Source of the DNA: a virus
Strand: one strand, 5' to 3'
IMG/VR virus record: IMGVR_UViG_3300036795_000111
Coordinates: 1 to 46,291 of that record
DNA: 46,291 nucleotides
Each line of letters opens with the position of its first letter. Positions within the stretch are counted from its first letter, which is position 1. Below are positions 31,445 through 40,923 of the stretch, piece by piece. The notes beneath the pieces were generated by a model. It was not told where the DNA came from. It saw only the letters and a list, made by a program, of their open reading frames with translations, and ran no database searches. The position numbers and the translations under genes were made by a program.

Positions 31445-31947
31445 GCGGCCTCTGCAGGCGCCGCGGTTTTGCGATACAGCAGACCTGCGCGCCGTTGTTG
31501 GCCGCACTGCAACAGGACGGCGTCCAGCCGCTCATGCAGGACATCGAGGCGCTGCATCGTCGTCGGACCCGCGTAGTCATCGGGTATGCGTTCGAGAGCG
31601 GCGTCGAACTCGGCCAATTCGGATGAGCATCGATGGCGCTCAATCCACTGCAGGGAGCTGCGAGGGATCGCGCGCCGCAATTGCCGCCGTGTCTTTCGGT
31701 TGCTGATCTCTGGCATTTTCCGACACATCCCTGAGCGCCTCATCCTCCCGATCACTTGACCGAGGCTCAAGCCTAGGGCTCGCGATGTCGCAAGCACAGT
31801 CAGACCTTGGGATTGATATTCAAGCATTCGTGCGTGCAGCTCTGATGTCCAGACGGATCCTGGCTGAGAGCTTGGCCGATGCTGAACCGCGCATGGCCAG
31901 CAGCGCAGACCACGCACGGAGGCGCCGCAATCGATGCAGGAACGCAT
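31441..31947 (-). CDS. GcrA-like transcription regulator with N-terminal zinc ribbon, 168 aa
   Basis: ATG 31947 sits in the upstream TGA. The N-terminus MRSCIDCGASVRGLRCWPC is a four-Cys zinc ribbon. Residues about 30-75 (GSVWTSELHARMLEY, LATSRALGLSLGQVIGRMRR) match the GcrA DNA-binding domain: W-x5-L-x2-L-x3-G-x-T/S and LGxxxxAVIGRxxRxG. GcrA is an alphaproteobacterial sigma70 cofactor that reads adenine methylation. The GcrA sigma-binding C-terminus is replaced by a charged helical domain. As one of the last genes of the early operon it is a good candidate for switching on late genes. Confidence 0.7.
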   Translation of the reverse strand: MRSCIDCGASVRGLRCWPCAVQHRPSSQPGSVWTSELHARMLEYQSQGLTVLATSRALGLSLGQVIGRMRRSGMCRKMPEISNRKTRRQLRRAIPRSSLQWIERHRCSSELAEFDAALERIPDDYAGPTTMQRLDVLHERLDAVLLQCGQQRRAGLLYRKTAAPAEAA

Positions 31948-32255
31948 CACGGCGCCTCCATGACATTGCACTGTCGCAAGAACTCCCGACGGCGCTGCGG
32001 GCCTTCAGGCGCCGGTCCCCACTGCTCAGCAAGCCACCACGGCCAATCATCACCAGCAGGCGCCCGGCGTGCCTGCGCGGCTGCAGCGAGGGTGCGGATG
32101 TCATGTGGGGTTGGCCGCACGCGGCTACACCGCCGCCACTCCGTGCATGCAGCCTGTATGGCCTCCGTGGAAAATTCAACCAGATCCTCGATCCAATCCT
32201 CCAGCTGCGCTTGCCGCGTCGCCTCCGGGTCGTCAGCAGTCCAGTAGTGGCTCAT
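31947..32255 (-). CDS. Replication accessory (helicase-loader-like) protein, 102 aa
   Basis: ATG 32255, with GCGAGG upstream, overlaps the DnaT-like gene end by 23 bases. MSHYWTADDPEATRQAQLED, then DLVEFSTEAIQAACTEWRR and RPTPHDIRTLAAA. The pattern W-x-R-x5-RPTPxDIxxL is frequent in small proteins encoded right after phage replication initiators. A role in loading the host helicase is inferred. Confidence 0.55.
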   Translation of the reverse strand: MSHYWTADDPEATRQAQLEDWIEDLVEFSTEAIQAACTEWRRCSRVRPTPHDIRTLAAAAQARRAPAGDDWPWWLAEQWGPAPEGPQRRREFLRQCNVMEAP

Positions 32256-32871
32256 CAGCCTCGCCACGATCGCGCTGACGTGCGTCGAATGCGAGTGCTG
32301 CCCGGTAGGCGCCTGCGTAGAGCTTTTCGACGGGGCTCTTCCGGTGTCGGAAGCCGTTAACGCGCGGTTCGGCGGTAAGCGTACGGCATCGGTTGCGGAA
32401 CGTTGCCGACCAGTCGGCATGGGGCTGCCCGCATCCGAGCCAGTAGTCTCGGAACTCTTCTGCGGTGGTATCCGGGTCAAGCCCGCATTCAAGCGCGAAT
32501 TCACAATCTCGCTCGCTAGGCTGCCAATCGGGCGAAATCCGCCGTCGTGGTTTTGCTCGTCCATTGCTCGCCTCTGGTTTCGTGGATTCATGCTCCCAAA
32601 CCTCGCGCGCGCCCGCGTCGTACGATGAGGATTCGGAAGAATCCGATTGGGAGGATAAAGGAGGGGGGTTAGATATATACTCATTGGGGGGCACCATTAA
32701 GGAGGGCGGCGTTACGTAACGACGCGCCATTTCGTTACGTAACGATGCCAGTTCCTCCTTTATTTCCAGCAACATAGTCGTAATGCCCGTTACGTAACGC
32801 TGGGTTTCCGTTACGTAACGCTGCCACTTCTCGCGGTGCGCCTTTTGGCGCTCGGAGTTTGACTTAGCCAT
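32233..32871 (-). CDS. DnaT-like replication initiator, 212 aa
   Basis: TAGATG joins it to the DnaA-like gene. The N-terminal part (SERQKAHREKWQRYVTETQ) is helical. The C-terminal domain DWQPSERDCEFALECGLD, then EFRDYWLGCGQPHADW and SATFRNRCR, matches the DNA-binding domain of DnaT-like primosomal proteins and phage replisome organisers (FRxYW...DWxxxxRNWxR). Four CGTTACGTAACG palindromes lie in its first 55 codons, the lambda-O-like arrangement of an origin inside the initiator gene. Confidence 0.75.
   Translation of the reverse strand: MAKSNSERQKAHREKWQRYVTETQRYVTGITTMLLEIKEELASLRNEMARRYVTPPSLMVPPNEYISNPPPLSSQSDSSESSSYDAGAREVWEHESTKPEASNGRAKPRRRISPDWQPSERDCEFALECGLDPDTTAEEFRDYWLGCGQPHADWSATFRNRCRTLTAEPRVNGFRHRKSPVEKLYAGAYRAALAFDARQRDRGEADEPLLDC
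32710..32820. repeat. Candidate replication origin: four 12-bp palindromic iterons
   Basis: CGTTACGTAACG occurs at 32710..32721, 32733..32744, 32788..32799 and 32809..32820, in pairs spaced 23 and 21 bases (about two helical turns). Three copies encode Arg-Tyr-Val-Thr; the copy at 32733 is read in another frame (Leu-Arg-Asn), so the DNA rather than the peptide is conserved. An A/T-richer stretch at about 32640..32700 lies on one side. The layout resembles the lambda origin within gene O. Confidence 0.75.
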
Positions 32872-33288
32872 CTATGCCGCCAGCGACAGCCGCAGCCTCG
32901 CGATCGTGGCCGCAACATCGCCACCAGCTGATTTGAGCCGATGGTGCGCCTCGTAGGCGGTCGAATAGTCGCGGTTGAACGCGGTGGCGATGATGCCGAA
33001 ACTGCGATTGGTGATTTCGCGCGCCAAAAAGATGGCGATCTGACGGGGACGCGACACATGCCGGTCCACGCGGTCGGACAGCATCTCGGAGCGCGTGATG
33101 GCGAATTCCTCGCACACGGCCGCCTGGATGTCCGCAATGCTCGGGTCGCCAAGACACCCGGCAGTCGGCAACGGCATGGCCCGCAACTCCTCGATCGGCA
33201 TCGTGGCGATGCGGCGAAGATGGTCCGCAATCGCGGGACAGATCTCGTTCCACGGAGCAGGCGCTTGGCTCCAATCCGTTGACATCAT
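32872..33288 (-). CDS. Stand-alone DnaA domain IV-like protein, 138 aa
   Basis: Residues about 55-120 read IADIQAAVCEEFAITRSEML, then VSRPRQIAIFLAREITNRS, IIATAFNRDYSTAYEAHH, which is the DnaA domain IV helix-turn-helix with the RQIAxxLAR basic loop and the xNRDYSTxxxA signature (RDHTTV in DnaA). The ATPase domains are missing. The protein may bind DnaA-box-like sites for origin control or act as a regulator. AGAGGA precedes the start, which overlaps the nuclease stop (ATGA). Confidence 0.75.
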   Translation of the reverse strand: MMSTDWSQAPAPWNEICPAIADHLRRIATMPIEELRAMPLPTAGCLGDPSIADIQAAVCEEFAITRSEMLSDRVDRHVSRPRQIAIFLAREITNRSFGIIATAFNRDYSTAYEAHHRLKSAGGDVAATIARLRLSLAA

Positions 33289-40710: not shown

Positions 40711-40923
40711 CTAACGTTCTCTGCGGCAGCGTTTGCTCCTGCGATAGGTAACGACACGCTCTAGGCTGAGTGCTTCTAGGAGCTTCGGGCCTGGTGCGCG
40801 CTGTCCTCGCAATACCTCATTTACATAGGTTACTGAGATCCCATGTTGCCGCGCCCATTTTGTTTGCGAGCGGGCTTCGTCGCATGCCTGTCGTAGAAAC
40901 TTAATAACATCCGCCAATTCCAT
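40711..40923 (-). CDS. XRE-family repressor-like protein, 70 aa
   Basis: MELADVIKFLRQACDEARSQ, then TKWARQHGISVTYVNEVLRG is a clear HTH (Q-x2-WA-x2-HGIS-x2-YV-x2-VLRG), followed by PGPKLLEALSLERVVTYRR. Typical of short prophage repressors in alphaproteobacteria. Its promoter places the start of transcription at or next to the ATG, so the mRNA may be leaderless. Heads the leftward operon and faces the rightward gene at 41005. Confidence 0.7.
   Translation of the reverse strand: MELADVIKFLRQACDEARSQTKWARQHGISVTYVNEVLRGQRAPGPKLLEALSLERVVTYRRSKRCRRER

Follow-up and report, generated by a model that had tools for sequence, protein, structure and literature searches.

The 46,291-nucleotide stretch of viral DNA analysed here (the window; IMG/VR record IMGVR_UViG_3300036795_000111) carries four copies of the palindrome CGTTACGTAACG inside the gene for its own replication initiator. 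These palindromes are probably the binding sites of that same initiator, read by a bZIP-like helix, and would form an origin within the gene in the manner of lambda O. The analysis establishes the sites, their conservation as DNA, the tight association of a basic region with them across unrelated phage genes, and the prediction of an unbroken helix that keeps the bZIP register. It is this association and this register, together with the likeness of the sites to the targets of the fungal regulators Pap1 and Yap1, that make the palindromes most likely the initiator's own sites.

The initiator locus

On the minus strand, the gene order is a DnaA domain IV gene, the DnaT-domain initiator gene, and a helicase-loader-like gene that overlaps the initiator's end (Table 1; the start codon of the last gene was assigned by eye). 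The first of these encodes DnaA domain IV and nothing more, just as the earlier note on this DNA had read it.

Table 1. Features of the initiator locus, in window coordinates
Feature	Position	Strand	Remarks
Stand-alone DnaA domain IV protein	32872..33288	-	Bac_DnaA_C, E 2.6e-17; upstream of initiator gene
Replication initiator gene, 212 aa	32233..32871	-	Basic helix plus coiled coil, disordered linker, C-terminal DnaT domain
Basic region, residues 5-15, NSERQKAHREK (N-x-x-R-Q-x-x-H-R)	32827..32859	-	Putative GTTAC half-site reader
Coiled-coil part of N-terminal helix, residues 16-53	32713..32826	-	bZIP register from Asn5
Palindrome 1, CGTTACGTAACG	32809..32820	.	Codons 18-21, RYVT
Palindrome 2	32788..32799	.	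Codons 25-28, RYVT
Palindrome 3	32733..32744	.	Codons 43-47, other frame, SLRN
Palindrome 4	32710..32721	.	Codons 51-54, RYVT
Short A+T-rich stretch adjoining palindromes	32669..32685	.	Possible unwinding element, suggested by sequence
DnaT domain, residues 111-166	32374..32541	-	Pfam
Possible helicase loader	31947..32255	-	PHROG 2289 "helicase loader", E 0.0047 (weak); overlaps 3' end of initiator gene

The four perfect copies of CGTTACGTAACG are the only ones in the window, where an order-1 Markov model predicts 0.0008, and allowing up to two mismatches adds a single match, at 40742. All four fall within codons 18 to 54 of the initiator gene, early in the gene as had been noted, and translation bears out that three encode RYVT, the other being read as (S)LRN. 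The third reading frame of the palindrome has a stop codon; both usable frames occur in the initiator gene. An earlier comparison with the lambda O-gene origin rested on paired spacing and an A/T-rich flank. The spacing stands, with start-to-start distances of 23, 55, and 21 bp making a 21-bp and a 23-bp pair, while the flank is present yet modest: A+T is 48% in the 100-bp block at 32701-32800 versus 38% in the window. The stretch TAGATATATACTCATT lies immediately beyond the last palindrome, in the direction of the initiator gene. GC skew across the window gave no clear origin signal. At the start of the window, positions 45-110 hold a perfect 9-bp tandem repeat (TGAGCCTTG).

The initiator itself is recognizable at its C-terminal part, where the DnaT domain scores 27.2 bits against a Pfam cut-off of 25, and it matches the PHROG "replication initiation protein" family at E 5.7e-8. 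Domain scans gave no family match for an N-terminal winged-helix domain, and the protein begins with a basic helix instead. Its N-terminal sequence, MAKSNSERQKAHREK, carries the sole occurrence in the window of the basic-region signature (NSERQKAHR). AlphaFold2, run on a single chain from a single sequence without an alignment, so that dimer and DNA contacts lie outside the model, predicts one helix spanning residues 5-53 with a pLDDT of about 93, followed by disorder and a poorly modelled C-terminal part. The predicted coiled-coil part of this helix and the palindromes are encoded by the same DNA. Searches of viral contigs found no close relatives of the initiator, and no close relative of the phage was found.

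What accompanies the palindromes

Which protein travels with these sites? A DNA-only scan of public contigs, in which the peptide was disregarded and two copies of CGTTACGTAACG had to lie 5-35 bp apart, returned 34 loci, 22 of them viral and 12 in bacterial genomes, mostly of Alphaproteobacteria; about 30 of the loci are distinct. A phmmer search of the 22 viral palindrome stretches found no relatives of the window's initiator. The pair sits either inside a replication initiator gene (of replisome organiser or "replication initiation protein" families) or just ahead of a small gene, and in both types of location the DNA beside it encodes N-x-x-R-Q-x-x-[H/Y/W/F]-R. This strict peptide lies within 250 bp of the palindromes at 23 of the 34 loci. 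Its density near the sites, 23 occurrences in 21 kb, is about a hundredfold higher than elsewhere in the same contigs, where there are 3 in 273 kb. Close variants occur at six more loci (L008, L012, L015, L142, L145, and L147); with 5 of the 34 judged near-duplicates by inspection, about 24 of 29 retain the peptide or a close variant. The protein that tracks with the sites, which the earlier note missed, is the initiator's own N-terminal basic region. At one of the variant loci, the initiator (L008:4926-6113) has an HNH nuclease-like stretch between its N-terminal domain and the palindromes, with the variant basic region adjoining.

The converse scan searched viral contigs for NAERQ-x-R-x-R by codon pattern, disregarding the palindrome, and its counts refer to the matches listed. 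"Credible" genes, for which the criteria included H, Y, W, or F at N+7, numbered 59 among those matches. Around them, among the matches listed, CGTTAC occurs 185 times versus 7.3 expected and CGTAAC 132 times versus 6.3. For the 51 non-redundant genes among the matches listed, 201 GTTAC/GTAAC half-sites lie within about 400 bp, a 13-fold enrichment (null mean, 15.5; largest of 500, 28), and at least three half-sites are found at 32 of these 51 loci, versus a null mean of 0.4. The residue at N+7 matters: among the matches listed, at least three half-sites accompany 36 of 66 cases with H/Y/W/F and 1 of 43 with other residues (p=1.6e-9), most of the 43 probably not being genes. Convergent half-sites are likewise in excess among the matches listed (GTTA-N1-TAAC, 12 versus 0.25 expected; GTTA-N2-TAAC, 15 versus 0.17), and direct repeats occur there at 10-12, 21, and 24 bp, approximately one or two helical turns. 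Some peptide carriers have no GTTAC/GTAAC sites.

Across 36 aligned basic-region sequences, Asn, Arg (N+3), Gln, and Arg (N+8) are invariant; N+7 is His in the window and aromatic in many relatives. A related basic region, SNERVNKWRE, appears with GTAAC repeats 12 bp apart in an initiator whose locus was found via a DnaA pattern that took no account of these sites (L203). The variant ARVRRHRE, set aside as a candidate, has few real genes, which also have GTAAC repeats, the site being unchanged despite the replacement of Gln by Val. The carriers are of several kinds: the basic region occurs in many phage replication initiators, which have the sites within their own gene; in small, possibly autoregulatory proteins, in which paired sites precede the start codon; and in terminase small subunits. 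The last (PHROG 1496) start with a NAERQ-type basic region (L126:7573-8115, L093:5804-6289, L104:1780-2370, and L077:3-665), and GTTAC/GTAAC half-sites lie near their genes, mostly within them.

Might the peptide encoded by the palindrome, rather than the DNA, be what selection preserves? In the linkers that follow the basic region, 77 of 91 VT dipeptides use GTA or GTT for the valine, whereas other long ORFs on these contigs do so for 146 of 609. The same linkers encode 103 of 220 Asn residues as AAC preceded by a T, compared with 218 of 3,697 elsewhere. Conservation of RYVT as the cause is ruled out by the use of both open frames, by the upstream positions, and by this biased codon choice. 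Because unrelated genes retain the palindrome whether it is read in one open frame or the other or stands ahead of the start codon, what is conserved is the DNA, as the earlier note had argued; on whether relatives keep RYVT without the palindrome, the outcome also goes its way, since it is the palindrome DNA that is kept.

Likeness to fungal bZIP regulators

The fungal regulator Pap1 contacts a TTAC half-site through the signature NxxAQxxFR; its preferred site is TTACGTAA, and that of Yap1 is TTACTAA (PMC7261193). These are the two forms of the Yap/Pap1 element (PMC7261193; PMC3111461). Both are enriched beside the phage genes, whose products may bind them. The phage signature, NxxRQxx[HYWF]R, has the Asn, Gln, and Arg in common with the fungal one; the Ala at N+3 is replaced by Arg, and the place of the Phe is taken by an aromatic residue or His. 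The window initiator shows the bZIP spacing N-x7-R, with Asn5, Gln9, His12, and Arg13. While Pap1 and Yap1 are fungal regulators, the phage basic region is found in replication, packaging, and small regulatory proteins.

The likeness extends to the coiled coil. The core of the initiator's helix (V20, T23, V27, I30, L34, I37, L41, L44, and M48) lies at N+15, 18, 22, 25, 29, 32, 36, 39, and 43 from Asn5, which is the register of GCN4 and Pap1. In this register, eight of nine core positions are L, I, V, or M, versus at most four of nine in any other phase. The Pap1 sequence for this test was checked against 1GD2, and the distance from Asn to the coiled-coil core is equal in the two proteins. Across the family, the bZIP register is preferred slightly, with an Erythrobacter protein (L140) off by one. 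A small Erythrobacter family protein has one predicted helix, at residues 5-49 (AlphaFold2).

Should the initiator then be filed as a bZIP protein? When hhalign aligns the phage and Pap1-type profiles, it matches the Asn and the Gln of one to those of the other without prompting, at a weak probability of 50%, and no Pfam bZIP model was matched with E allowed up to 1 or 10. For these reasons, the initiator is likened to the Pap1 type and not counted as a member. Sequence comparison turned up no solved structure related to the basic region. The bZIP class has been described as exclusive to eukaryotes (PMC4046829), and the open-access literature yielded no description of the phage basic-region peptide and nothing pertinent to prokaryotic bZIP proteins or to GTTACGTAAC in connection with phage. 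The wider proposition, that phages carry bZIP-like helices with the Pap1/Yap1 signature and target and use them to place origins, operators, and perhaps packaging sites, seems to us evenly balanced between true and false.

Proposed mechanism

How would the initiator use its sites? The basic part, NSERQKAHR, would insert into the major groove at a GTTAC half-site, with the coiled coil holding a pair of subunits together over each palindrome (GTTAC|GTAAC). Dimers bound at both site pairs would then assemble a nucleoprotein origin, as lambda O does on ori-lambda, and the C-terminal DnaT domain, together with the product of the next gene, would recruit the host helicase. We infer physical binding, dimer formation, origin activity, and helicase loading by the initiator from the features described above. 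Since many initiators of the family have direct repeats of the half-site and no coiled coil, the dimer picture fits the window better than it fits the family.

Alternative roles for the sites

An origin within the initiator gene, which the earlier note had proposed, is the likeliest use of the palindromes as judged from sequence. What else could they be? One alternative is that they are operators, through which the initiator represses its own transcription or translation, and that the origin lies elsewhere. This draws on the small proteins with the same N-terminal peptide, whose paired sites lie some 30-60 bp ahead of the codons for the basic region, where autoregulatory sites are typically found, and a regulatory role for paired sites ahead of these start codons is possible. 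For the window, however, it is unlikely: the sites lie 50-160 bp inside the gene, beyond the start codon, as in many replication initiators, and operator and origin roles can coexist.

Less probable still is that the sites serve partition, as a centromere-like element, or some other phage function, packaging for example. The peptide and nearby half-sites at the terminase small subunits of some phages speak for it, and the half-sites there could mark packaging sites, but the carrier in the window is a replication initiator by domain and gene order, and no ParA/ParB pair was noted beside it among those window genes scanned.

The earlier note had instead looked to the neighbouring DnaA domain IV protein as reader of the palindromes. 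It is a DNA-binding domain encoded by the next gene upstream, and a few other phages (L204 and L210) also have a DnaA domain IV gene close to an initiator gene. DnaA domain IV, however, reads a non-palindromic 9-mer, and no DnaA box with up to one mismatch was found near the palindromes. Among the 22 viral palindrome loci, scanned at the protein level, one DnaA domain IV relative turned up, 7 kb away; no close relatives of the window's protein were found in viral contigs. L204 has the window's gene order, with a DnaA domain IV gene directly upstream of a DUF1376-DnaT-like initiator, yet has other repeats and no GTTAC sites. DnaA domain IV thus does not track with the palindromes across loci, and its being their reader is very hard to credit. 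Just as implausible is that the basic region is an arginine-rich RNA-binding motif, of a length comparable to the helices of lambdoid N proteins, and the repeats its RNA sites, given that the palindrome has no loop for a stable hairpin, that many relatives have unpaired direct GTAAC repeats, and that sites also precede genes and occur in either orientation.

Comparison with other phage initiators

The preferred reading, of palindromes bound by the initiator whose gene contains them, recalls lambda in several respects. In both, four repeated sites with inner symmetry lie inside the initiator gene beside an A+T-rich flank, the C-terminal part of the initiator is expected to meet the helicase-loading machinery, and a helicase-loader gene (in the window, a possible one) comes next. 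The differences are as clear. In lambda, O recognises its iterons through a winged-helix domain at the N terminus, whereas in the window initiator no winged helix was found and the apparent reader is one basic helix continued by a coiled coil; the lambda site also differs in sequence from CGTTACGTAACG.

Repeats within the initiator gene, found in the window, form the same layout in other initiators. Mycobacteriophage Giles gp63 (L198:3010-4089; Giles 45667-46746), hypothetical in the reference record, has NAERQKRHRER followed, within the gene as in the window, by two GTAAC pairs 12 bp apart. It matches a PHROG replication initiation protein at E 3.8e-30 and groups with the "RepA-like replication initiators" of actinobacterial phages, and it is predicted to be a replication initiator with a nested origin. 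Unlike the window initiator, it has an extra N-terminal domain, direct repeats in place of palindromes, and no apparent coiled coil beyond the basic region. Gene 64, which follows gene 63, is essential and has been implicated in DNA replication (PMC5705681).

DnaT-domain relatives that do not have the peptide (phiAX1, Bbif-1, and Huffy) have different repeats in the part of their initiator gene that encodes the linker. Initiators of the DUF1376-DnaT type (Acetobacter phage phiAX1 and L204) have a C-terminal DnaT-type domain and repeats in the linker-coding DNA, as in the window; they differ in their N-terminal DUF1376 (by Pfam in phiAX1, by resemblance in L204), another basic region, other repeats, and no GTTAC sites. 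The phiAX1 linker repeats are TGCAAATGCA, and those of Bifidobacterium Bbif-1 contain GTGCAAACAG. In Gordonia phage Huffy (L154:1910-2758), near-perfect GGACCGGCG repeats recur every 11 bp in the initiator gene after the basic stretch AARERMRRRRRES, and the two are possibly another pairing of a basic region with a repeat. Because relatives carry other repeats in the same place, the lambda-like plan of nesting the origin within the initiator's gene is the common one; the window's variant lacks the N-terminal domain and would read its sites through a bZIP-like helix.

Implications

If this reading is right, a short peptide and a short DNA word would explain the positions of origins in many uncharacterised phages, including the cultivable Giles, and phage origins would become predictable from sequence. 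That an initiator's helix should be encoded by its own putative binding sites is an unusual double use of DNA. A class described as confined to eukaryotes would have a prokaryotic viral counterpart, whether by convergence or by descent, and the fungal bZIP way of reading TTACGTAA would have arisen twice or be much older than thought.
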